A stretch of 64,000 bases of DNA, from NCBI GenBank assembly GCA_000499405.2, contig HG738140.1, positions 62,001 through 126,000 of the forward strand, given 5' to 3'. Source of the DNA: Onchocerca volvulus. Taxonomy: Eukaryota > Nematoda > Chromadorea > Rhabditida > Onchocercidae. Shown here piece by piece: positions 4,564 through 64,000 of the stretch. Each line of letters opens with the position of its first letter. Position 1 is the first letter of the stretch. The notes below the pieces were generated by a model. It searched no databases, was not told where the DNA came from, and was given only the letters and a program-made list of their open reading frames with translations. The position numbers were made by a program, and so were the translations under genes.

Positions 4564-4891
4564 TGTTTATGTATTATGATTGCATGTTTGTCTTTTGTGT
4601 TTAAATGTATTTATTTACCTTTTTGTATAATTTATGAATGAAAAATGCTTAGAAGAAACAGTAATATAAATCAAATCCAAATTTCTTCGACTTATGACGA
4701 TTGTACATGTTCGCTAATTTATTACAGATCGCTCAAAGATTCTGCTGCTCTTGGATCGGTCTTGATTTGTTTGTTTCATAAATTGTATATCTCTTGATGA
4801 CACGTACTCCATCTATTTCTTATTCTTGATGAGACGTGTGCACTAAAAGATAGTAATCCACTCTTTTCACCTAAGATCAAAGACTGATTAA
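4564..4891. other. intergenic, nothing recognised
   Basis: AT-rich spacer between the ACGTG cluster and the virB4-like relic. An in-frame TAA at 4889-4891 directly precedes the relic's open stretch. Confidence 0.5.
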
Positions 4892-5176
4892 AAGTTGAGT
4901 GCTTTTGTGATTTCTGTCATTCAGAGTGTTGAAAATGCATGCGAAAGAATCATTAGTGATACATTTATACAACACATAGCAACACAAATTTTTTTGCCAA
5001 ACTTGAAAGCTACTAGTACTGCCTGTAGGGATGTTTTTATGTTAACTGAACGTGAATACACACCAATCCAAGTACTTTCAGGGGGACAAGAAGCTAATGC
5101 TAATACAGTAAGACGCTGTGATGATAAAACAAAACTTCTGGGATTAATAAAGGCGAAGATGAAGCGGTCAGTGTAA
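4892..5176 (+). pseudogene. virB4: virB4 fragment of Wolbachia type (nuclear bacterial relic)
   Basis: The 95-codon open stretch reads like the C-terminal part of the VirB4/CagE ATPase of the Rickettsiales type IV secretion system. Visible motifs are FVISVIQSVENACE, ISDTFIQHIATQIFLPN and RDVFMLTEREYT, then VLSG followed by ANANTVRR. The Walker A/B core and the rest of the roughly 800-residue protein are absent. The reading jumps from EREYTPIQ straight to VLSG, where family members as I recall them have about 30 more residues, so an internal deletion is likely. No ATG start exists and a TAA stands just upstream. No neighbouring virB gene is visible. It sits in worm intergenic DNA, so it is best read as a decayed transfer from an endosymbiont. 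Assignment is from motif memory, without a search. Confidence 0.8.
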
Positions 5177-6007
5177 AATTGCGATGTCGAACATTCACTG
5201 TATTAATGAGCCAAGCTGGAATCTTTAGTCTTCTTTCTTTTTTCATTCCAATATAAACATGATCGAGTTTGCTTCGCTCTGGAGGTCATTAAGAATTGAT
5301 CAATTTAATATGTAGAAAGTTGAAACGCAGTGTTCGTCGTGTATGGTTTGCCATGACTGCGATCAGTGAAGTTCTGCTAAACTGGCAAACAAGATTTCTT
5401 TCATTCTCCTAGAACATTACTGATTAGCGAATGAAAAACATCTTGTCTCGCAAGTGTGCCAGATGATGAAAACGAGAGCAGGCAACTGTGGAAGATCAAC
5501 TTTTTCGTAACCGATGTTTGTCCTAGTTGGTATTGTAAGATTAACATATAAGAAACGACTGTGAAAGACCTAATGTTCCATTTGTTGAGAAAATATCAGT
5601 TTGCCATATGATTCAGAAGAACTGAACTAATGAATTTCTCAAGAAGAAAAGATACATTTTTCAATTTGACAAAATTTGTAAGGATGATATTGGAAGTGCT
5701 ATTTAAATTCGAGCTAGATTTATAATGACTATTTCGCAGTTACGGATAATGAATCCTTATGTACATAATTCAGAGATTTGCTAATTATTTCTTGGTAAAA
5801 AAATAAATATTTTTCTGTACTTCTGTGTAACGCTCAAATCATAGCCCGTTTGTGCTATTAGTTCTCTAGTCTCCTGTGACAAACTTATCATATGTTTTCC
5901 CAAAAACTTTTCAGAACAGCATTTTATACTTTAAAACAGTCGTAAATCAAGGGAAGATAATAAGCAATTTCTTTTTCTTTTCATTATTAATCATGCTTTG
6001 GTGGGAT
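5177..6007. other. intergenic and transporter 3' flank
   Basis: No further bacterial-looking frame continues after the stop at 5174-5176. No canonical AATAAA on the minus strand was found close to the transporter stop. Otherwise AT-rich spacer. Confidence 0.5.
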
Positions 6008-9000
6008 TTAGTGACTGATTCTGGAGAAACACTGGATTTCAGGATTTCTGGTAATGTTCGAGTATTGTCCACAGCATTTCAACGAACTATAAGTGGTATT
6101 TGAATGATCCGTTGATTGCAGGAAAGGTTGTACATAGCACGGTGGGACGAATCGAATTGTTGCCATCGCCCTAACTGCCATCACCGCACTTATCATCGAT
6201 GCAATTATTGTTAACACTATAAAAGAAAAAACAAGTTGTATAGCTTACTAGCTTGAACTAAATTACTTTACTAATTAATTAAACTGGTTTACTTGGTTGG
6301 CAAATTATTTCAATTATTGTCCTTTTTATATGATGAGAATTTTTTTATTTGCGTGCCATATCCTGCATGGTTAAGTGAAATGACTCAGCTTATTTTGCTC
6401 GCAAAATTAGATGAACTGTAAGCTCGATAGGCTAAATCTACTTTTTTCGCTTATTCATTTCATTGATTAATAGGACTTACCGTTCACAAACAGGAACCAG
6501 ATCAGTATGTGACGTGGTGTCCTCTCAAAAATTCTGCAAATAAGTAACCGTTAGCAAAGCTGCCCAGCAGATGCAAGTCAAAGAATGCATTCTCGCATAT
6601 TATTTTAAATTTCTATGCAACGATAGCACTTCGTGTGTGACAAGTTCTTTCCGTGCAGGAAAGCGCTTCTTGGCATCAGATGTCATCCTCAATCAGTAAT
6701 GACAAATGGGTACGAATGATCTATGTCTAATTGCAGAATTCTCACGTAAAAAGAATTAGAATCAGCGAGGAGTATCTTTAGTCCTGACATCTTTCATACT
6801 ATATCGATATGATACATTGACATATGCGAGGAAATTCTGCCCAGAGATCAATCATTGCTAAAGAAGCCTAGTCGTAGTTGATTATTCGGCACAACTAACT
6901 CTTTCAGTGTGGGTATTTTCCATTTCTTCGTTTTCTCATTGTATCGTTGGTTCTTGAGAGAAAGACTGAACAGAGTTGGCAGTATAATACAGGTAAATGG
7001 GATAGTTGTGCTCCCAAAGAAATCCATAATTGAGCCGAAATTCGGAATTGATAAAGCGACGAACACTATGACTGCCAAAAGTCCGGTTCGAACAACGATA
7101 CGTTGCCAACACATCTCTATGAAGCTATTTTCAGAAAATTTGGATCTTAGGTTGAAATTTTCTAGGTGCAAAAGAAAGTCTGTTTCTAGCCTTCCATTGA
7201 ATCCTACGAAAGCCAACAAAAATTTCAGACTTTCAGCAGACATCCTTTACCGTATTTCTTTGGTGTCTTTGGTCTTAGTGGTGAAGTTTCAACGTTCTAA
7301 CATCTTTAGACGAGAAGAAAACGAACTGTGTGGAACATGAAAAATATCTTCAAATTGTTGATTGATTGGATTTATTGTGAGAATAATGGTGAGGACGCAG
7401 TGGAATGCAACTGCCAGGTCAGCTCCATGTCGAATCCAGGTTGTTTGAATCGAATCAATTAGTGAATCCTGCATGCTTTGACCGTAGACAAAATAGGCAT
7501 ATACGGACAACGGAATATATAGACAACAGGCCCCTGGAAATGATACCAAAGATTAGGCAAGTTATATCCGTTTTTTCTTAAATTTGCTCAAATCAGGCTT
7601 TTTTTTTTTGGCGAGTTTAAAGATAAATTGGCACAATCAAATCACTTATTTAACAATACACATCGAGTTCATTTTCCTTAGTTAAGATAAACTAACAACT
7701 TTCCGAGTTGTCATCTGAAACAGTCTCAATCTTTTTGAAGTAAACGAGTTGTTTCATCTTCACATCAGATCTTTCAGAACCTGATTTTTTAAAACGATAA
7801 AATACAAACAGAAAAATCCGAGCAGGACGGATTTTGAGAATTCTTTTGGTTCGTGCATATCATGCTGTATTGTTGGGAAAACGTGATGACCACTGTAGGC
7901 AAACACGAACGTCCCAAGACTATAGAGGGCATAAAAGGATGCCGGTTTATAGACGACTGTTGGCTTGCATAAACTATAATCTTGCGTGATGCCAACCGTA
8001 ATTAGAACAGCAGCAATGACGGTGCAAAGAAGTGATATGGCCAGAACAACCCTGAAATGAAACTGTTTTTCAATATAGAAAGCAAAGCAATTGATTTTAG
8101 CAAAGTTTGATAATTGCGAATGGGCCTTGTGGCTTTGTTATATTCTGGAACACTAATATGGCATATGGCGAGCGATCATATATATGGCGTCCCGGAGTTT
8201 TAAATGATTTTTTGAAGAGATTTAAAGCAGGAAAAGGCATGTATCTTGAAAATGACGAAAGTGAGTGGGGATATCACGTCTCTTGCAAGCCAGATACCAT
8301 TCAAAACGTGCTCGACAACGGAATGCCATTCAAAGTGTCTCTGATAGATTCTGTCATTTTTATATAGAATATTCACTTATTTACTCGCTCATCTTCATTT
8401 ACACCTTTTTAATTTCACTAAATGATTTTGTCGAAGGGTCAGTTTGACGATTTTTTGTATGGGTCATTCGATGGATTTACTCAGAGAGCGATGTTTCAAT
8501 CGCGTTCTATATTCAATACTAATGACTAGACAGCATTGACGCCTGGTGAAAAGGAATATTACTGTTGGTTCAACTTCATTCTTCTAAAATCTTATCTCTT
8601 TTTTCAAGGAATAAGATTTGATGGCACTGGAGACCATTCGCATTTTTGTGTCATATCTTTCTACGAAATTTCAGGAAAAAAATGTGATTTCTTGAACAAA
8701 CCAAAAATCAGCTGGTGATTTGAGAAAAGTAGTCGGCAAGATTAATATGGCAAGAATGATTAGCAAAAGACAGAAATGTATTCTAATACCGAAATGGACC
8801 AAAACTTTGTGAAATATGCTTGACGACAGAATAACATATACAGTGGTGACACCGAACAGCGTCGTATTAACACAGAATACTGTGAAAGATCTGAAACTTG
8901 AATTTTTAATTTTTGAAATATGCGGACATAAGGATCTAGCTGGCTATTTACTAGAACTGCAATTTCTGCTGTGCAATACTTTAAATTTATTTTGGCTTTG

Positions 9001-9901
9001 TGGTTTGCACTCGATGTTACCGGTAAAGAAATGGACTTGTAGTTCGTGTGAATTATGGCAACTCGAGAAGAGAAGCATTATCGTGGCATCCGCATATGAA
9101 AATGCAGATGAACAGAACTGCAGTTCATGTGAATATTCTACAAATTCAAATTATGGTGCGTGTAATGCAATCGCAAAAATAGTAAAGTATAGCTTGCCTC
9201 ATCTTAGGTCCGAAACTACGCATACCAATTTCGGGATATGGTTGACGACAGTGAGTCTTGTAGACAGGCCATCGATCTCTCATTATACTCCATGCCTGGG
9301 ACAAGAGATGAGCAGTGCTCGTGAAGAATATGGCAATCAATACCAGAAATATGCAGCCAATAGTCATGCCTAGAACAAGGATTATCTAGCCAAGAATTGT
9401 ACCTAGAATAAGGATCATCTATTCGAAAACAGTCACTTATTTATATCTTTTAAATAAAATTTTTCAAGTTTTAGATGTTACGATTCGATGATCGAATTGA
9501 GAAGGGAGATGGATTCTGATAAAAGTGAGTCCACCTATTCTGATGTTTAATTTTCATTAATTCAGAAGCTATTGTATATACATATAGCTTATTGGATCAG
9601 AAATTTCAGCAAGAAAACCTGTATCATGAAATGCAGCCGGCATGGCCACCAAACCTCCGCCAACCAAATCTGCAACGACGATGATGGATGCAACAAGCCA
9701 GTTGTAACCTCGAGTAGAAGGTACATTCACGGATGCAGCGTTAATGTCCTTGGCCTTATCTTTTACGTTTTCCATTTGCTGATTAACTTGCATTTCAATG
9801 GCAGAAACGAATGTTTTGACATCTTTTATTGGTGATTCACTACCGGTGGTATCTGCTTGTGTTGGCACTGTGGTGCTAGAATCGCCCACTGATCTGTTCA
9901 T
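6008..9901 (-). CDS. AAAP-family transmembrane amino acid transporter
   Basis: Eight exons: 9901-9619, 9369-9198, 8890-8702, 8051-7810, 7533-7327, 7116-6900, 6533-6481, 6216-6008. They sum to 1572 nt, giving 523 residues with all phases closing. A hydrophilic N-terminus of about 65 residues precedes RGYNWLVASIIVVAD and GGGLVAMPAAF (residues 81-91), the first helix signature of Aa_trans/SLC36-SLC32 proteins. Later segments include TTLFGVTTVYVILSS, TQDYSLCKPTVVY, FAYSGHHVFPTIQHDM, YIPLSVYAYFVYG and INPINQQFEDIFHVPH. These proteins move amino acids with protons across plasma or lysosomal membranes; the substrate cannot be read here. Intron 2 has a GC donor (GAG|GCAAGC) and intron 3 carries an unexplained plus-strand frame. 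The nearest worm relatives are likely the uncharacterised Aa_trans genes, so no symbol is given. Confidence 0.9.
8107..8367 (+). other. unidentified open frame inside transporter intron 3, opposite strand
   Basis: The 86-codon frame lies wholly inside the 8701-8052 intron and runs antisense to the transporter. Its composition is balanced for this AT-rich DNA (for example SYIWRPGVLNDFLKRF and YHVSCKPDTIQNVLDNG), with few lysine or phenylalanine runs. I recognise no family. It could be an inserted foreign fragment, a nested gene exon or chance. Confidence 0.25.
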
Positions 9902-10817
9902 TTTCCGGAATTTTTATCTAAATTTCAAAGTTACAAAAACTTCAGTTCTATTGAACTGCAATTTTTTCATTCCGAAAATTTCGAATTTAGGAAGAAATTT
10001 TGGACCATTAAGTAGACCCAAATATTTCTTTACTTTTATTGTTCAACTGATTTCAGTATCTTCCATGAAGCAGATAATGAGTCGCATCATATTCTCTCCT
10101 TCTCAGTGCTTTTCGCAATCACCGAAATATTTCTAGCGAAATTTTCCGAAAAATTCATCAATATCATTCCTTCAAAATCGGGAACCTGACCAACTGGAAA
10201 CTAAACTTGTCGGATTGCATGCAAAAACTCTCATTCAGAAATGTAGCATGCAACTGAGGTTTAATTGCTGCAAAATGTAAGCGATTATTTTATTTGATGA
10301 AATGAAGATATACGTGAGAACATGTGATCCCACATACAGAAAGCTATTCTTTATGGCCCAGATAAAATGCGATAAATGAACTGAGATGTATGTATTTAAG
10401 TGGCGTTCTTTCGAAGAAAAAATGAACGAATGACGTAAAAATTTGAAGGACAGTTTTAAAAGAGCAAGTCGCATGATTTTTTCAAAAAACCGAATTTCGA
10501 AAAAGAGGAATTTAAAAGGATGCTTCACCAAGAAGTAAAATGGACGCATATCAATCAATCAGGTAATTAATTTATAGTACATTCCTTCAACATTCACTGT
10601 TATACCGCAGCAATACAATGAGGTTTAGTGCGAGCGCGACATCCCGTCTAATGATTCGGCAGAGGAATCGCCATCTCATTAATCTAATCTTAGTCGCATT
10701 GTGGTAACTCGAGAAAACTTACTGAGATATTCAGAAGAAGGGCGAATTAAAATTGGAACACAGCGCATGGGTCGGTCTCATCACTTCATTTTAACTTCCT
10801 AACCGTCCCACAGACTC

Positions 10818-20759: not shown

Positions 20760-23700
20760 CGATGAACTAACTGGAGCTGACTATTTATTTGACTTCATGT
20801 CGCTATATGAGATCCACAATATGTTAATCAATACGAAGGTTGGACCGATAATAACTGGAAGTGATTATACCAACATAGCTTGTAGTTTCAATGAAGACAA
20901 AAGCAAATCGGGAAGAATCTGTTGACTGCGTAAGCAAAGTCACTGCAAATCCAGAAATAGACCAGCTCTGGACACTAGAGCTCATAGGTATCCAATAAAA
21001 ATTAAATGCACAGGATAACGAGAAGGCTCTAGAACAGTTAAAACAAAGTATCACTAAGAAAAACAAAAGATAACAAGTTTGCTAGCCGTGGAAAGACTCA
21101 AAGGTCAGCCTACACAATAACTATGGTTTTTGTCTTAGACGATTGAAAACCTTAATAAAACGACTCCAAAACGAAAAAAAAAACTACTAAATTACTTCTT
21201 TAATTACCTCATCGTATAATCGATACGATGAGGTAATAACGAAAGAAGAAATACAACTCAATATCATCGAAGATGAAACCGGAAATGAATCATATTTATC
21301 TACTACACCACGAGGTTTTAGCACCAAGTAAATAACAACGAAATTACGAAGTGTTTATGATGCTTCGGCCTATTCTAAAGGAATCAGAAGTTTGAAGATG
21401 TTAAATATCGCGTCCCATAACATCACTCGACTTGGTAAGAATTTTACTTCGGTTCAGAATGATAAAAAATGTAACAATAGCTGATTTTGAGAAGGCATTT
21501 TTAAATTGGAGCCAATTCCATCAGAACAAAACTGTACACGATTTTTATGATTGAAGGACATTAAAGAAAAATCACAAAGGAAAATTTGGCATATTACCAT
21601 TATCAAGAGTTCCATTTGAAATAATATTATTTCCCTTCCTACTATCACATACCCTCAATTATCATTTAGGAAACGATGGAAGCAAAACTGCCCTGGAAAT
21701 GAGAAAAAATCTTTAAGTTGACGACATTATTTTATCAACGAAGGGAATCAAAGAAGCGCTCAAAGATTATGAGGAAATGAAGGCTATCTTTCAAGAAGCT
21801 TCAATGAACGTAAGGGAATTTCTCTCGAACGATAATGAATTCAATATATTCATTCCCAAAAATGATCAAGCAGCTGAAACACGATTCAAGGAAAATCTTG
21901 GAGTCAACTGGAATCAGAGAAAGGATGTTCTTCAAATCATTTAAAACCTTGGAACGATGTGGAACAATTTCACAATTCATAGCATTTCAATGCGATCCAG
22001 TGGGATTTCTCGTGCCAATTCTGATTCAATTGAAACTTTTTCTTCAAAACTTATGGAGAAAGAATCACTTATGATCAAGCTTTATCTGAAAAAGACAGAG
22101 GAACTTGGAGATTCTTAATAAAGGCATGTAAAAAAAAAAAAAAAAAAAAAAGATATTGCCATTCGTAAAGAAAACTTGTAATTTCACGTTTTCACAGATG
22201 CGTCAAATGTAGCCTATTCTATTCTGCAGCTGTATATAAAAGAAGCAATGAAGCATAAGGACCAAAACTTCCTTGATATTTGCTAAATCTCGAATAGCTC
22301 CAATCAAAGGCACAACAATACCTCGACTGGAGCTACTGGCAATACTAATTGGAGTACGAGCATAGAATTTGTAATTAATCAATTGGAGCTCGAAAATGCA
22401 CTGATATCTTTATGGTCTGACTCTAAATCTGCATTACATTGGATTCAAAACCATTCTCGTTTACAACCAAAATTTATACAAAACAGGGTGGAAGAAATAA
22501 GGAAAACCAAGGCATTGTTCTACTACATTCCAAGTAAAGCCAGTCCGATTGATATAGCAACAAAAGGAATCTCTCCAATAAAATTCAGAAATTACAACTT
22601 ACGGTGGAAGGGATCGTCATGTTGAAAGAAGAGGAAACCAACTGGCCACAATGAGAATACAAGAAACGAAATCTTCATAGCAAAGATTTTAACAAAACCC
22701 ATTGCAAATAAGAGTTTTCAAATTATAGAGCAAGTCGTTTTAGCAAGTGGTCAAGGCTATGGAGAACAAAAAAAAAAAAAACTGCACGAGCATTAAACTT
22801 TATAAATTTCATATCGAAGGTAAGATTCACATGTTAAAGGATCTGTCGAAAGAGCGAGATAGGTTAATTCTATCAGATTATAGAATGAAAATGAGAATCT
22901 AATTACACAAGCACAATCACAAGGTATAACCGAATAAGAATTCGTTAATTATCACCCTTACGGGTTAATTTTACCATAAGAAACTAAGATTACATTTCCC
23001 TTGTATTATTTTCAACAATTTGCTCAATCTTAAATATTTAGCTGTCATCAAAGCTAACTTTTGTTTTGCATACGATGCCATTTTTTTTTATTGGGTCGAG
23101 CCAATCAAATTCTGCAAAATATACATCTTTTGATTCTGCAGGTGACAGCAATACCACTTGCGAAGAAGAAGAATTTAGCTCCAAGTAGTAAGAGTTTGGC
23201 AAGCTGAAGCTGAACTAACTAATCGAATAATAAAAACTAAGGGCATATAGCCTGACTTTTTCTTTTGTATCATATATTATTTATCATTAAACCTTTTGAT
23301 AATATTTCTCATTTTTGCTACCTCTTCAAACCCTAGATTTTCAGCATGCTTTAAAATCTGCTTCTTTAAGTTTTTCAATAAATGGATTCTCTATTATAAT
23401 GACATAGATCGCTGTTGGAAATCTCGAAGTCGGATAGATGACTCAGCAGTGCATCCAGGTAGTTCACATCTAATCTATCTCTCAAAATATAACTTCATAA
23501 CTGAGATTCTCATACAGCGACAGCATGAAGAATTGTGTCTCAAACATTATCAGAATTGAGAAAGGAATTCTGAATACCGAAAGGCAGAACTAAAGTCAAG
23601 CGAGTTCTAAATAAATGCAAAGGCTGCAAAAGATGGAGTGCAAAACCATTTCAGCTGCTGGTAATATCTAATCTCTGAGAAACATGAATTAAACATTCCC

Positions 23701-24680
23701 GACACTGAACATATTGGACTAGATTTTCTCGTTCCTCTTTCTCTCAAAATGAGAATGGACTAATTAAAAGGTGAAAAGCGTTCTTTACTTGTTTCACAGC
23801 AAGAGCTGTACATCTAGAAATGGCAGATAATTTATCCGCCGAAAGCTTCATGCACGTACTCAGAAGATTCAGCGCACGGCGAGGATATCCCAAATTGGTT
23901 CTGAGCGACAACGCTAGCCAGTTTCAATTAACTTTCCAGACCATCAGGAAGTACAAAACAAATTAAGAAACTTCCGAAGAGTGAAAAGAATAGTACCACT
24001 CCGAGAGCTTGCTGAAGTGGAGTAATGTATGAAAGATTGACTGGCCTAACAAAGAAGGCAATGAGGAGGGTTATATTGGTCGAAGATTATTGTGGGAAAA
24101 GGAATTGATCACACTGATGGCATAAATAGAAGGCATATTGAATATCCGACCATTAACTACGTAAACTCTGAGAATTATATATAATTTTACGCCAGTTGAT
24201 TTCATATCACCTAATTCCTCTCTAATAACTCGAATTTTTTATGATGATGATGAAGAAGAAGAATTTATCCCTCATAGAATGAGTACTCAGAAAAAATAAG
24301 TTAAATGATGGTCATATACACATAGAGCTTCAGATATATTTTGGGCATATGAAAAAGGCAATATCTAAATAGTCTGAGAGAACGAACTAAAAAAAAACAC
24401 GTTTCTCCAAGAACAGTAGAAGAGAGCCTCGTGAAGAAGAAATCCTACCAGTCAACGAACAAGAGATCCCCCGCGGTATGTGGAAAATAGTGAAAATAAA
24501 GGAAATTAAAAGAGGAAGAGATAGAGAAGCTAGAAGTGCCTTAATAGAAACCCCATAAGAAAAATTGCTCAATAGATTGAGGCACAACGTGTATTGTAGT
24601 ACTTGACTTAAACTGAGATAGTTTTTGATTTGTTTTCTTGTCCTTTTATCTTCAAAAGAAATAATCATCAAAAACTTCAA
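20760..24680 (+). mobile_element. decayed BEL/Pao LTR-retrotransposon pol region
   Basis: Frame-broken remains follow Pao order on plus. Protease end: GADYLFDFM and KVGPIITGSDY near 20773-20870. Peptidase A17/RT lead-in: QLWTLELIGI near 20963. Reverse transcriptase: VTIADFEKAFLN near 21470 and the VDDII catalytic motif at 21717. RNase H: FTDAS near 22196 and WSDSKSALHWIQNHS with YYIPSKASPIDIATKG at 22400-22570. Integrase zinc region: KCKGCKRWSAKPFQL near 23620. Integrase core: AVHLEMADNLSAESF and LVLSDNASQF near 23800-23930. C-terminal PRGMWKIVKIKEIKRGRD near 24472. Many stops, frameshifts and internal A-runs (22130-22152) show it is dead. Gag and LTRs were not recognised, so the outer limits are approximate. 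Confidence 0.85.
21203..21237. repeat. perfect inverted repeat inside the Pao relic
   Basis: TTACCTCATCGTAT at 21204-21217 pairs with 21223-21236 across a 5-base loop, with one more A-T pair outside. It interrupts the stretch between protease and reverse transcriptase remnants, so it arose after the element died or is a small insertion. Confidence 0.9.
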
Positions 24681-25340
24681 AGCCTTTCATGGTTAATGCT
24701 AACCAAAAATTAATTTTACTACTTAGTTCATGGGGGGTAGATATAGTGCTAATAATTTTACTTAGAATTTATGACCTTAATCATCTGTTGGTCAGCTGAT
24801 TCTCTTCTTTAGATATAGAATTGCCAGTGAACCTGTTGTATCTCCTTAACGTTGACAACAGTAGTAATCCAAGGAATCATTCGCCAACTTTATAAGAACC
24901 AATACGAGAAACAGGACCAGAAGAACCTAGTCTCAACAAGAAGTGCGACAAACAAGTATTTGAGAAATTTCCAGTTGGAACGATATACGTTTGATTTTTG
25001 AAACTACTTAGCATGTCGACACTCCAAGTCTTTCATGTTAGTGACATAATTCCAATCTTCAAATGCTTGTTCATTAGGATTTGAGGTTGCACGAGAATCT
25101 CGTTCGATAAGCAAAAGAAAACGAATTCACCACATGAGCACAATCACTTTGAACCCAGCGAGATGTGCATGTTGCATTGTGCTACAACATGGTCATAACG
25201 GTAAAAAGGAGCGGTAAGATTTGAATTTTAAATGTGTCTATTGCCCGAACAGTTGACGTTATTCTGTCCAATTGTTACCGTATTCCAGGCATTTTATCGC
25301 TTTACTGTTCATCTTGTTGAGTCATTTATGGTTTGTCATC
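24681..25340. other. intergenic, upstream of the first coiled-coil gene
   Basis: No LTR matching the other flank of the Pao relic was found. A TATTCCAG acceptor-like site ends at 25288, 52 bases before the next ATG, and could be a trans-splice acceptor. Confidence 0.45.
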
Positions 25341-27994
25341 ATGTCGAATTTCTTGAAAATGTTTCGTTCGAAGAAGACAACGGAAAAGGAGAATTTCAAT
25401 ACAGTACACGATGAAGTTAGTATCATTCTCGATAACTCCTGATCTTTTTTCGTGTCGTTGATCACATTTAAATGATAGGATAAATTAATTTTCTCTGTTA
25501 TCCGCAAAATTGTAGAAGAGGAACTAATAGCAGGATCTTAAATACTAGGCAACTTCTACTGGAATACCATCTTGGCTTCGACTTTTTAATTTTTGCCAAT
25601 TGGGGAAGCCTGAGATGGACATAGATTTGAGATGATTTCAGGAGAAGATAAAACATCGAAACAAAGAGACTTATGGTAGTGGATCGTCAAGACGTGATAA
25701 GCGTATTTCTCGAATTCGAAGTATCGATGACTCTTTACTAAAACCCACAGCTGCTTATCATACTGTCACCCAGCCGAGGCAGTACAAAGCTTCACGGTCA
25801 TGTGTTGGCCGAGACGAATATGATGAATACGACAAATTCCGTCATTCAATCGATTTCCACAATAGGGTCAGTTTTTTGATCAAAATTATTTATATACTTA
25901 TGATCATCATAAATACTGCTGCCACCCTTTAAATTTTAAAAGGTGTTAATTGACCCATAAACATATTATACAAATCTTTTCTTTTTTTTTTTTTGTACAT
26001 CCCCTATTTGATTTCATTATTTGTCATATAGTCGTGTTTGTGTTTGCCTCTATGTTTTATAATAAAAAGTATAAAACATTGTATTTTTATCTTATATATT
26101 TATTATCAGTTTCCGATATTATCAATATGTAAAAAAAGTGTAATATAAAAAATCATCATCAATCATTAGATGGTTGGTACTAAAGATCACAAGATAAAGT
26201 TCTCCCTTCACAAATTTCAGAATCTTTTTCTCAATAGTTTCCGGTTTAGTAGGTTAGAGGAAAATGATAAATTCTAAGACGGAAGTGTCGTTGTTGCTGC
26301 AATAACCAGCTGCACCAATACCTCAAACCCAAGCATGATAATTACTGTTTATGTTTTAGTGATTGGTCTTAATTTGAATTACTGGACTACACTTATATCT
26401 GGTTGTTCATTGTTCGTCTAATCATTTCTTATTACTTTTATACATCACTTGTTGTAGAGTAGTATGAGATGTGGGAAGCGGTCACATGTTGAGAATGATC
26501 GATTTCATGATCGGCTTTCAATGTTTACCAAGAACAACTACGACTCGGAAATTTTGGATTCTGATGATTCATATGACTCACAAAATGGTAGCGGTACAAA
26601 CAATAACGATACTGTTCAGGTACATTCTTGATTTTTGGTAATGATATGATATTTTGCAATAATAATTCATCTAAAATAGAAGATGAAACTCATAAATCAT
26701 GTGGAGAACAACTTATAGTTCTATTTTTGGAAAAAAAATTTTAGTTTTTTTTGAGTGTAACGGAGCAATTTCCAGGTTCTAGAGACGAAATTAGATGCTC
26801 TTCTTTATCGCCTTCGTCGAGAGGAAGAGCGCAAAAATTCATATAAACAGAAGTTAATGTCCGAACGTATAGTGCGGCAGCATGTTGAAAGCAAATTCGT
26901 TGAAGATATTCAGCGATTAACTCAAATGGTAGAAATGCTTAAAAATGAGCAAAAATCATATCGAAATAGAATTAGTGTTTTGGAAAAGGTAAGCTACGGA
27001 TGTCATTTGCTGTTCTTTATAAATAATGATCATTTGGACTATCAAAGATATGCTATCCAGAATAATCGAGAATCTAAGCATATCACTTTCTGATATCGCT
27101 CAACATCTGTTCTAAATATGCATGTCCTTTCTTGTTTAATTTTATGGTTGTTTTTCAGCAGCTAAAACAAGCCGGTCCAAAACTTATGACTGACAGCTTT
27201 AAAGGACCATCGCTTTTTTGTTCACCACCGTCGACATCAAATGGTCAGTCTTCGGTTCTTACAATGACTGAACTGGCTTGCTCTGCAACTTCCGGTTCTA
27301 CCGTCCCATTGCCGTCTACATTACACTGCAATACAATTAATGAAGGAAGTGTTGACGAAGTGAGGAATTTTCGTATCAATGAGGTATGATAATTTTCTAT
27401 CCAAATTTTTAAATTCTTAAAGAAAATAGAGAAATTTCCATTAAGGTTTTTTTTGCTACCAAAATGAAAAATTTTTTCTAACATCTTAAATTTCTGGTAA
27501 AAACGAGCGGTTTAACTTTTTTTGCTTTTCATTTTAGATTGATTAACTCTTGTTAGTTGGATTATTTTTCAGAATGAAAATAGTATATCAATATTGACAA
27601 ATAGAAAATAGTATATCAAGATGAAGAATAGAATGAAGTTGGATGATAAAGCCACTTTTATCTATTCTGTTATAGTTTATTTTTTGTTAAATTCTGATCT
27701 TGATCAATTGCTCAACGTCATATTGATATAAATTTTTGTGTTCTATCTCAATAGGTCACTTCGTCTGTGGAAGCTGAACGACGCACAATATCTGGTAGCT
27801 CCTTCTCAACTCGTGAAAATGAGGGCTCTACAACTTTAGAAGAAACTTTTCGTGCAATTGATCGTGTTACTGCTACTGCAACAACAGCATCACATGGATT
27901 TGGTGATAAAATGGCAACATCGATCATTCGACGATCAAGTAGTGATACGAGACTTGGGCAGCGTGATATAATGCTTAAATCTACAAATATTTAA
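25341..27994 (+). CDS. coiled-coil protein, tandem paralog A (unknown function)
   Basis: Six exons: 25341-25415, 25642-25866, 26458-26619, 26776-26988, 27159-27383, 27755-27994, every junction in phase 0, giving 379 residues. The N-terminus is short and basic (MSNFLKMFRSKK). Next come a Ser/Arg-rich segment with AAYHTVTQPRQY (about residues 62-73), an acidic Ser/Asp stretch (SEILDSDDSYDSQ), a 71-residue coiled coil coded by exon 4 (155-225, LDALLYRLRREEERKNSYKQ), and a Ser/Thr-rich tail. There is no signal peptide or membrane segment. I do not recognise the family; the architecture suggests a cytoplasmic scaffold. The next gene downstream is a clear paralog, with the same exon-4 length and the AAYHT motif. 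Confidence 0.8.
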
Positions 27995-47394: not shown

Positions 47395-47552
47395 TTTATT
47401 TTTACTATACCATGATCTAATTTTCTCTTACTTTTTACAAAGCCATGTAATTTAGGTCCATAAGCAACATTACCATATACTGACTTTGGAAAAGGATTTG
47501 ACTTTTGAAATACCATACCGACTTCTGCTCCGAACAGTACAACATCCACATG
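47395..47552 (-). pseudogene. pstB: pstB fragment of Wolbachia type (nuclear bacterial relic)
   Basis: About 50 codons read as the part of PstB, the ATP-binding subunit of the phosphate ABC transporter, that contains the Q-loop. Visible are [38 protein letters not shown] and [11 protein letters not shown]; family members as I recall them have VGMVFQKPNPFPKSIY-NV-YGP. Walker A upstream and the LSGGQ signature and Walker B downstream are missing on both sides. An extra codon seems inserted after KLDH. It is a short, dead piece in worm intergenic DNA, on the opposite strand to WDFY2. A contaminating bacterial contig is unlikely because intact worm genes flank it within 3 kb. Assignment is from motif memory. 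Confidence 0.8.
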
Positions 47553-49249
47553 ACACATTTACTACATGTAAACTCCAATATAATTTACAACATAAGTAAC
47601 TTCAGCGCAAAGAGAGAGAGATAATTTACATGTTCGCATGGCGCAAAGAGAGTTGTTTACTTCATGCCATCATAGCACAACACAATTTACAATATGTTAA
47701 TTATAACGAGAAGGTCAAAAGTTTGCTTATACAAAGATATTCTGTAATACAAAGATTTTTGATTAATTCGTCATATTTATGTTCCAAAAAATATTTCGGT
47801 TTTACCGACAAGCAATTAGATTCCGGAAACACAAGATGACGCCTTTCAATGCCCCTGAGAGTTCCTAGAATCACTCACTGCATACTGCGATAAACATTAG
47901 TTTCGGATTTTGAAGAAGTGGGTGCTAACGATAGCACGTCTTATCTTTTATTCTGATCACTCTTCAGAAGGAAGAATCAATCACTAAAAGTCCCTCAACC
48001 ATGCCCCAGAAGCAACCGCCATCACTCGACACTTCCATTTTTTCAAGTGCCATCGCCCTAAAGTGCTATCGTCACTCTCGGTATAGATCTTATTCCAGTA
48101 TGAGAAACTGTCAACAATCTGTAATTGATCTCGATCCTTCTGAAAATTCAATCACGATCGATGGAGAAATGCTTTCAATCTCTGTCGTACATGCGAATTA
48201 TCACTCCATCAGTCTCCTCAACCTCGGCCCCAGCGTCCCTGTCCTCAGTCATTGCTTCTCTAGTCCTTCAGTCTTCAACATTGTTCAATTCTTATGGCCA
48301 TCGGCATATTCAGCTTATCATAATGTCCTATGAGCCAAGGAAAGAAAAGACGTAGAGCTCTTGACTTCTCCGCTTCTTTTCTCATTTTAAGAGTGATGAT
48401 GGTGTTCACTCTATTTCTACTGTCTCTTTTTCTCATCTCTCTTAACCCAATTTTCAATTGTACGCTAAGTGATCTGTTTAATACCTCGCTATTAAAAGCT
48501 CGCCAGGTTACCTGATTGGTATGAACTAGCCAATCAGGTCACATCTTTTACATATCTCAAGTCACACAGAATCTAATTTCAAATTAAAAAACTTTAATGA
48601 CCATGTAGAAGTTGCTTATTACAGCGCAAAAATTCGTGTCTTCTTTTCCGTTGACAGTTAAATGTGTTAGTACTCGATAATGGGAAGGGTAAGAAATCGG
48701 TACAGCAGTGACCGCGTTAACGTGATTGCTTTGGCATGACATTGACGTACGTTGTATGACAGAATCGAAATGTATTTCAAATTCCTTCATAGACTGTTAG
48801 TTCATAAATTTAGTTCCAGAATTCATGTCATCCAGTATAATATTTGCGTGATTAGAGCTAATATATGCCTTCAGTTAAAGGGTGATATGTGGTGTCGACT
48901 GATATTTCACATCATAGTGATAAGCTACCAGTGTTAATTAACTTATACAATGCTGCAAAGCGATATGGTATAAGTTGACAGTGATAGTTTATCACTGTAG
49001 TGTGAAATGTCGTCGATGTCATGCATTCAAAGATTGCTGAGAGTACGGAGACAAAAAAAATATTTATAATAATTAAGTTGAGGAGTATAAATTTAAGTTG
49101 CGATAAACTGATAAGGAAATATTCTGTGCTTTTTCTTCGTAATGTAGTCCTGAAGTCATGATATCTTCGGACGTTGGCTAAGAATTCTTGAAATTATCAT
49201 TTCTTTGTATTATAGGGGCAGATATTTAATATATTATTGGGAGCAATCC
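47553..49249. other. divergent intergenic region, right part
   Basis: Contains an open frame at 48001-48333 (110 codons, higher G+C, unrecognised) and an inverted repeat, ACCTGATTGG at 48510-48519 with its complement at 48530-48539. TTGTATTATAG ending near 49214 is a candidate trans-splice acceptor for WDFY2. Confidence 0.45.
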
Positions 49250-52200
49250 ATGGCTGCAGTGATAAATGCGAAGCCAAGTTCTTTGACTCGATGTAGCATG
49301 GGTATTGGGAAACCAGGTCTCTCTTTCTCATTTAAATTTACGAAAAGGAAGTATGCATGTATAAATAAATTGAGAGGAAATTTCATGTATTAAGAAACTT
49401 GTTTGTTATGGATGATCCATATATTATTTGCAGTAAAGCTGGACTGTTTCAAAAATTGATGATATTTAACAAACTTTGTTTTATTAGGATTAATTGGTTG
49501 AAAATGTCAATTATCGAGATAAATTTAGTGCTGTTACATAAGATCGAAGGACAAATATCCCGTGTAAACGGCATACATTTATTGAGTACTGAAGAAGGCG
49601 TGCTAACAATCAGTGATGATCGATCATTACGTGTTTACTTGAAACGTGACAACGAGCAATTCTGGCCATCCATCTATCATTACCTCCCATTTTCTCCCAG
49701 TTCGATGCATTTTGATGAGTATAAATTAAGGTATCACTTGGCATCGCTTATTACAATATGTAACATATTCTGCAGCGAAAGTAAAGAAAGAAAAGACAGA
49801 AAAGGCAAAATATAAGAGAATAGTTACACATTTTTAGGGAATGGCATAATGCTGTAATTGGGAGAATTCCAGAGTGGAGGAAACAGATTCCAAATTAAAA
49901 TTAAGAGGATTTGGAACGATTAGCAACATCTTTATATATAATTATTTCCAGCAGAAACTACTTTGTGATATGGAATAATATTCTTTATTACAGGCTCTTT
50001 GTTGGTCTTATCAACGGTAGCGTTTATGAGTACAAAGTAGCGGAAGACATGAACAGTTTGTCGGAACAACGTCACTGGATGGCACATTTGAGTTTGGTTA
50101 CTTCTGTACTATATTCACCGGAAGCTGAACTAATCTTCAGTTGTAGCAAAGATAAAACGACAGTTTGGCATTGTTCCGAAACCTCTGTAAAAATGGGCTA
50201 GTTTCAAGATTATCGCCATATAAATTTCGCGTTGGAATTGTTCATAAATCTGTAGTTGTTCATATGTGATGAAAGACAATCTGTTAAAGTATTTGCTGTT
50301 GTAGGTCATTAAGCTTAATTGAAGAAATAGAAATAGTAATCTTTCATCTACGAATAAGAATGTTGTGGGCGATTTAAAGTGTTATATTAAAAAGATCATA
50401 TGATGATTTTTGAGAACATGAAAATTCGAAGTGACTATGATTATGCTTACCTAGTTCTAGCGACTAGACTTAAAATTCATGGGATCTATTGTTTTCGAAA
50501 TCCTAATGCTGACTTTTCTCTAAAAGTCGAATATAGCATTAAAGGATTTCATCTAGAAAAGTTGAATAGCACAATTGTTCAACGAGCCAATATGTTCTGG
50601 TTCTAACCTATTTTATGACTGCATAGCAAGTGCTCTAATTATCTCCTAGAAACTATAGCTGGTTGTTTAGACCACCCAAACAACTGCTATAAAAAATTTG
50701 CTTTTATTATTCAAATTAGGGAAAAAATATTGCTTTATTAATCGTCTGCTCTTTCTACTCTTTGTTTTTTGTTAATTTAGTTCTTTTTTTTTCTGTGACT
50801 TGCGGATATTTAAACTTCAAGTACTTTTAGTCATAGAAGATTGAATTTTTGAATTATTATAAGATGAATCACCTGCTAGCAGTAATGATTATTTATTGCA
50901 GGATCCTATACAGGCGAATCAGGCTTCACGGCTTTGGAATTCGATGTGTCATCGAAATTTGTTTTTTTAGGCGATTCTGGTGGTGGCGTTATTCTCCTAC
51001 GTTTAAACGGTTCGGAAGCTAATGTCGTCACCACTCTTTCTGCACATACAAGTGGGTTGTACGAGTTAGAATTTATTTTAGCGATATGCTGTATATATGT
51101 AACAGTTCTGACGAAACATGATCTAGCACATCATGGTAAAGATAGCGAAGCATAATGTCATTAATTGATGTTGTGTTGAGGATGATTTTGGAATGGTTGT
51201 AAATTAACATCTCAAACTTATGTTCTGCTCACTGCCATAACTTCATTGGACGATGCACTATATTGAATGATCGGATACTGTTGGAGATAACATGTCGACG
51301 GTGTCTTTTTAATGTAGCATTCCAAAATCATTCCTTTTCTATATTTTTAAATTTCCCTTAAAAAACTGCTCTTAGGAAATATATACTTTTATTTATGTTC
51401 AGCTTTGCTTTTAGATACCATAACATCGCTGGCCTGGGATTCAGAACGTCAATTATTGTTTTCAGCAGGAGCCGATCACCTTGTTATCATGTGGGACATT
51501 GGTGGAAAGAAAGGACAAGCATTTGAATTGAAGTGAGCTTTCCAGTCTTTTCAAATCATTTGAGTTTACAGCATGTATTATTTAATATTTTTACTACGTG
51601 ATACCGATCGTTTTATATCAGACAAGAATGAAGTTCTTCTTCCAGCGTATGCGTATGATGACTATCAATATCAGTATGCATAAAATATATGTGATGTACT
51701 GACAATAAGCGAAATAATAATGGATAGCTTTAAAAGATAAATAATGTAAGCTGATATTCATGCTATTTATTGACTTGGAGCAGAAATTGGTCCAGTTAGG
51801 TCTTCTTAATTGAAACATTATTTTTGCTTTTAGATTTGCTTAATGTTAAAATTTTTTATCCAGACAGCTCATTTTTACCTATGGCTAATTGTTTTCATAA
51901 CTAAAATGGTTCATGTATTGTTTATTTAAACTACTACAGTCGCTATTACGTTAAGTGATATTTACTGTAAATGGCATGAAAATTAAGTTTAAAAAAACTA
52001 AAAACACTAAATTTGATAAAATTTTATTATTTCTTAGATGCTGCTATCTGAATTTTAGCGCCCACAACAACAGATTAACATGTCTACGATATGCACAGCA
52101 TAAGAAAAGGCTTTTTTCGGCAGATGAAGACGGAAGTTTAGTTTGTTGGGATATGACGGCGAAACGCGTGGAAACACCAGGATGGAAAACGAGTGATAGC

Positions 52201-63323: not shown

Positions 63324-64000
63324 TGTACTCAGTATCTATTCAATTCGTGATTCAATATCCAATATACGAATCAAAACGATCGCACCTTCCCTTATTCGTC
63401 GTTTCCTCGTAGCACAAACCAATCCAAAATGAAAAGAAAAAAAACTATTGAAATGATGGATACTATTGTTATTTCGTGATGCTTCAAACGTTATAACAAC
63501 AATCGGATAAAGGATCTATACATCTGTAGTCTACTCGTGATTATCAAAATCTTCACTCTACAGGAAGGGGAGTAATAGAAGATGTGATACAAAATAGTCA
63601 TTACTCATTACAAGGATTATATTCAAGATAATATCAAAAAATCCTATACATGTGTGGATAATATCTGATAAAAAAGCACTTGCAGAACTTCCCAATAAAC
63701 AAGAAGCATTGGATTATGTTAATCTAAGATACAAGAATTTTTTGTCGAAAAAGAATATTTCAGTAATCAGCAAATTATTCCATTAATTAAAGAAATTCTC
63801 GACAAGTAATTCAAATTATATCAATTCATTTATTTTATCAGTGAGGAGGGTTTTCAATCAATCCACCAGAATTATCTCTGGTGTCAACAGCAAAACAGCG
63901 AAAAGTGAAGCAGCACAATCCTTTCGGTCAGTCGGACGGAAGAACATTATTCCCCGAGATAACATTTATCTCTTCGATAGGATTCCGAAATTATCATCAG
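63324..64000 (+). other. TRIC 5' flank and possible exons of a gene cut by the right edge
   Basis: A TTTTATCAG acceptor-like site ends near 63842. From about 63858 all three plus frames but one short stop stay open to the edge; one reads SINPPELSLVSTAKQRKVKQ. Just upstream, 63690-63780 contains PNKQEALDYVNLRYKNFL. The correct frame and joins cannot be decided, and no family is recognised. If real, the gene is divergent from TRIC. Confidence 0.25.

Follow-up and report, generated by a model that had tools for sequence, protein, structure and literature searches.

Filarial nematodes hold nuclear Wolbachia transfers (nuwts), and those of Onchocerca volvulus have been catalogued as 531 putative nuwts (PMC5310847) and as 653 nuwt regions, with 96% of nuwts derived from supergroup C (PMC12693587), the latter in a 96.3 Mb assembly that differs from the one analysed here. 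Nuwts of C origin in Onchocerca have a mean length of 434 bp (PMC12693587). PMC2882956 (Table 2) records fragments of VirB4, the type IV secretion ATPase, at the DNA and RNA level in O. flexuosa and at the DNA level in B. malayi, and a row for Wbm0797 VirB4 of B. malayi stands among the nuwts of a section on qPCR copy number (PMC3849323); PMC3458923 does not mention virB, type IV secretion, pseudogene or stop codon. O. volvulus also carries a living Wolbachia, wOv, 99.51% identical to wOo (PMC5310847), so a Wolbachia relic in its nuclear DNA does not point to a lost symbiosis.

The window, the whole stretch of 64,000 nucleotides analysed here (C5:62001-126000), lies on a long host contig of an assembly of 94.68 Mb in 115 contigs. 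Mitochondrial COX1 from this assembly matches the O. volvulus entry at 100% identity, three O. ochengi entries at 99% and two O. flexuosa entries at 97-98%; the host is thus an Onchocerca, most probably O. volvulus, as the protein differs little between close relatives. Within it, positions 4728-5101 (+ strand) read as a decayed piece of virB4 of Wolbachia origin, embedded in a filarial nematode chromosome.

4728..5101, + strand: putative nuwt, virB4 fragment (nhmmer E=1.5e-75; blastn 81% to wOo over 4732-5068)
4729..4891, + strand: 5' part of the relic (alignments, frame translations)
4892..5173, + strand: open frame described in an earlier note, 94 codons, in VirB4 register at ~4895-5068 and again just before 5101

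The nhmmer match (envelope 4708-5122) was obtained with a virB4 profile built from 14 Wolbachia or Wolbachia-like sequences, three of which are Rickettsiales MAGs, and the next listed match of this profile in the window reaches only E=6.7. The blastn match to wOo has an E value of 1e-86, and the relic covers approximately residues 620-752 of the 804-residue wOo VirB4 frame. Neither the profile nor pairwise scoring detects VirB4 homology past 5101. From 5068 out to 5101 the match is carried by the profile alone, anchored on the remaining homology, and the pairwise tests there are weak by themselves: scored more strictly, wOo and wDi match best over 16 bases (5086-5101), a score that 13 of 2459 null stretches also attain, and the MAG L017 matches best in a different segment, no better than chance (994 of 2459). 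With a more liberal pairwise score, 5069-5300 is at chance level (reached by 104/601 and 113/630 null stretches), so that a continuation of the homology beyond 5101, through the end of the frame, finds no support, and the sequence upstream of 4731 is at chance level too (576/599).

A tblastn search finds a relative of the short frame encoded in 139 of 246 pattern-matched stretches of bacterial genomes. Among the best 80 of these 139, most titles name Rickettsiales and most rows match the first 56-65 residues of the frame; in the rows from Wolbachia, Ehrlichia, Neoehrlichia and Anaplasma, frame residues 1 to 60-65 match at 65-70%. With the short frame by itself as query, Pfam yields no VirB4 family, only DUF4537 at E=0.11. 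For the wOo source gene, Pfam assigns CagE_TrbE_VirB and P-loop_TraG, which we take to be the families of VirB4; PF19044 occurs as well in one database protein that is named VirB4. The earlier note, made without tools, correctly recognised a frameshifted bacterial relic from its motifs, and the rest of the gene is indeed missing. Its limits of 4892-5176 describe a real frame, but the homology starts approximately 160 bases upstream in other frames and ends at 5101; likewise, of its motif ANANTVRR only ANA lies inside the homology.

Compared with wOo, the relic carries eight internal indels (-2, +4, +1, +3, -11, +3, -13 and -8). In the 5' part, the VirB4 register is broken by the -2, +4 and +1 indels, which jointly leave it unchanged, and an in-frame +3 is added. 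This part also holds an in-frame stop after SPKIKD and a remnant of the Walker B region (LILDETCALKDSNPLF), frameshifted and followed by a stop. An 11-base deletion near 4894 ends the 5' part and leads into the open frame, which follows a stop at 4889-4891, has its first in-frame ATG at 5039 (codon 50) and closes with a stop at 5174-5176. The internal skip of about 30 residues suggested earlier is real but smaller, given that the 13 + 8 = 21 deleted bases remove 7 codons and bring back the VirB4 register for QEANA, just before 5101. The last 24 of the 94 codons (NTVRR onward; 5102-5173) have no recognisable relation to VirB4. A functional VirB4 ATPase would need both Walker motifs, A and B, within a single intact frame; taking residues 457 and 649 of the wOo frame to be Walker A and Walker B, the former lies outside the relic and the latter inside it but frameshifted.

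Substitutions in the relic spare neither the first nor the second codon position. Where six C/J/F sequences are invariant, the insert has changes of its own at 14/112, 18/115 and 5/66 sites of codon positions 1, 2 and 3, and at 5/52, 10/55 and 2/33 within 4895-5068. In living Wolbachia, by contrast, 24 of 32 differences between wOo and wDi are at position 3. Together with the indels and the internal stop, this shows that the relic has undergone neutral decay. The earlier note had described a frame still open over 95 codons. There are 94 codons and then a stop, but in neutral simulations (20,000 runs at each of four divergences, 0.10 to 0.20) the 57 in-register codons stay open in 55% down to 34% of the runs, so the openness is not meaningful. 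We see no sign here that the virB4 relic has a function.

In a tree of 19 bacterial sequences and the insert, the insert groups with wOo, wDi and wDcau (supergroups C and J) with a support of 99.6/99, which places the donor, by its sequence affinities, within the supergroup C/J clade; the position inside that clade is without support (0/52). Ungapped identity to the insert is 84.8% for wOo, 83.1% for wDi, 81.2% for wDcau and 81.7-82.8% for the trio of wOc (from Osmia) and the two Rickettsiales MAGs L014 and L017, which are presumably of termite origin. Overall, DNA identity ranges from 84.8 to 79.2% for wOo, wDi, the MAGs L006, L014 and L017, wOc, wStur, wDcau and wLbra, and is lower for five other Wolbachia (73.4-75.1%) and for Mesenet, Ehrlichia and Neoehrlichia (70.6-72.9%). 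Published assignments put wOo and wDi in supergroup C, wDcau in J, wOc in F and wLbra in D (PMC12693587); L014 and L017 may belong to supergroup F, as their nearness to wOc suggests.

Eight states distinguish wOo and wDi from six sequences outside supergroups C and J; the insert has all eight, and the J strain shares six of them. At the 26 sites where wOo and wDi differ, one of which is unclear, the insert lacks 8 of the 10 wOo-derived states and 14 of the 15 wDi-derived states (13 equal to wOo, 1 neither). Because most states private to either symbiont are missing, the donor appears to have been close to their common ancestor, and the copy probably left near the wOo/wDi split. If symbiont and host split together, the insertion would be approximately as old as the Onchocerca-Dirofilaria split. 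As a marker, the relic could then help to time symbiont history, and since it seems to date from about when the Wolbachia of Onchocerca and Dirofilaria separated, other Onchocerca species are expected to carry it at the same site. In a far-reaching version of this, which strikes us as very doubtful, one old transfer common to Onchocerca would have given rise both to the insert and to the VirB4 fragment that is RNA-positive in the Wolbachia-free O. flexuosa, and the insert's transcript (coding or not) would have been retained for a role in the host.

Downstream of the relic lie a further Wolbachia-like segment and a host gene.

5839..5888, + strand: Wolbachia-like segment matching wOo within ClpB (blastn, 50 bases at 94%, E=4e-13; gene by Pfam)
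6848..9913, - strand: amino-acid transporter exons (Aa_trans, PF01490; Pfam)

The relic lies approximately 1.7 kb beyond the last matched exon of the transporter, on the opposite strand. Two exons are matched by Pfam, at E=9.4e-15 (6848-7243) and 1.9e-11 (7763-8137); the frame at 9572-9913 has no Pfam family and is tentatively assigned to the same gene. The ClpB segment is 0.7 kb downstream of the relic, and its wOo source is approximately 515 kb away from that of the relic. The 2.2 kb around the relic match the genome only at the locus itself, as does the short frame, and no symbiont virB contig is seen in the assembly, in which none of the listed matches of two 10-kb wOo pieces exceeds approximately 0.5 kb. 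A separate protein-database contig (P0122, source 'lgn', longest 1168 bases) encodes the same frame with 87 of 89 residues identical and continues past the 3' junction into the tail that lacks VirB4 homology. The two differing residues include its first, Met versus Val, which is probably a start codon translated as Met.

The reading we favour, with a probability of roughly 0.96, is a nuwt drifting as non-functional DNA. On this reading, a piece of a supergroup-C-like Wolbachia chromosome, a few hundred bases long, entered a germline nucleus in an ancestor of this Onchocerca species, probably during double-strand break repair. It has since drifted beside a host gene, with the stretch downstream of the disabling indels left open by chance. 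The profile match, the C/J grouping and the indels and stop thus support the central claim of the earlier note, an old and decayed piece of a type IV secretion gene transferred into a nematode genome. Symbiont reads are to be expected in DNA preparations of a worm with living Wolbachia (PMC5310847), and a stray read or contig could have been joined to nematode DNA during assembly. Such a chimera is scarcely credible, given that the relic differs by 15% from wOo (361 ungapped columns) whereas wOv and wOo are 99.51% identical (PMC5310847), and that it has eight internal indels and a stop. The recurrence of the same frame and 3' junction on P0122 also speaks against a chimeric join, though P0122 could stem from related reads.

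It is likewise highly improbable that the virB4 piece has become an expressed, possibly functional host gene or exon. The 94 open codons, the transcription of some B. malayi nuwts (PMC3849323) and the RNA-positive score of the O. flexuosa VirB4 fragment (PMC2882956, Table 2) would fit such a gene, but third positions show no concentration of substitutions, 34-55% of the neutral runs leave the in-register codons open, the first in-frame ATG comes only at codon 50 and 24 of the 94 codons, at the frame end, are not VirB4. As for the donor, Anaplasma and Neoehrlichia score about equal to Wolbachia in the protein comparison (best 80 of 139), and PMC5310847 assigns one of the transfers in O. volvulus to Midichloria. 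On the DNA level, however, Mesenet, Ehrlichia and Neoehrlichia reach at most 72.9% identity against 84.8% for wOo, and the insert groups with C/J Wolbachia at 99.6/99 in a tree whose 19 bacterial sequences contain neither Midichloria nor Anaplasma, which leaves an origin from another Rickettsiales symbiont barely conceivable.

Including the relic, the window contains 11 Wolbachia-like segments (blastn, 52 bits or more). In the assembly, one 10-kb sample of wOo has at least 29 matching places and a second one at least 43. Seven of the 29 are within the virB4 gene (L027:2973-5384), the relic included; the six further short virB4 pieces, on C2, C3 and C4, are approximately 75-96% identical, and none overlaps most of the relic. 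Three of the 43 are mitochondrial or probably so: two belong to the mitochondrial contig, and the third, probably a mitochondrial piece in the nucleus, is also matched by the COX1 family and has five TGA inside. The approximately 69 non-mitochondrial matches over 20.2 kb of wOo extrapolate to approximately 2 per 64 kb of host genome, where the counts are lower bounds and a few of the matches may represent conserved genes instead of transfers. Hence, the window is richer than average in Wolbachia-like pieces, in good part through a mosaic near 23 kb. Five others, at 26170-26347, 47415-47554, 51598-51749, 63491-63530 and 63565-63772, are 73-90% identical to wOo, and three of them fall in genes that Pfam identifies as aconitase, ABC transporter ATPase and SecA. 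Elsewhere in the genome, a 261-base piece (C2:4952792-4953052; G000, L082) is 99% identical to wOo, and transfers of very different ages therefore seem to coexist. No nuclear mitochondrial piece is found near the relic: the 2,916 bases of mitochondrial DNA that were compared match the window at 28.4 and 55.6 kb and nowhere else, and the stretches concerned each resemble several places within a T-rich mitochondrial part.

The mosaic spans 443 bases (22933-23375) and comprises at least three Wolbachia-like pieces, 90-93% identical to wOo, from two distant wOo loci, the yidC region at approximately 645 kb and the uvrB region at approximately 614 kb. It sits inside a decayed element that we take to be Pao-like from the frame 22287-22625, and for which Pfam gives no family. 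The idea that a Pao-like retrotransposon (~22.2-24.6 kb) carries and spreads Wolbachia pieces is unsupported: 40 of 55 candidates were scored, and among the 46 matches listed this part (query ~734-1176) occurs in the window only, bar 9 bases at the edge of a match on C40. In three copies (C5:1326877, C77:11522 and C19:54806) the element flanks are approximately 400 bases closer together than in the window, so the pieces look inserted into the window copy. The least diverged Wolbachia-like piece of the window, 24577-24823 (94.7% to wOo 226632-226878), begins one base past the furthest reach of the other repeat copies (query 2377 = window 24576).

Compared with the VirB4 of Wolbachia, the relic shares its sequence source, residues ~620-752, but is only a sixth of the gene, frameshifted and without Walker A. 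The VirB4 pieces of O. flexuosa and B. malayi come from the same donor gene and lie likewise in filarial nuclear DNA (PMC2882956, PMC3849323); the O. flexuosa piece is RNA-positive (PMC2882956). A single fossil of this type matters little, given that such pieces are common in these worms. As the nuwts of O. volvulus are described in PMC5310847 and PMC12693587, the relic shows no difference of substance from them: it has the same host genus and most probably species, a length of a few hundred bases, a C-like origin, and a fragmented and apparently non-functional state, and it is a real but ordinary case of the well-described filarial nuwts.
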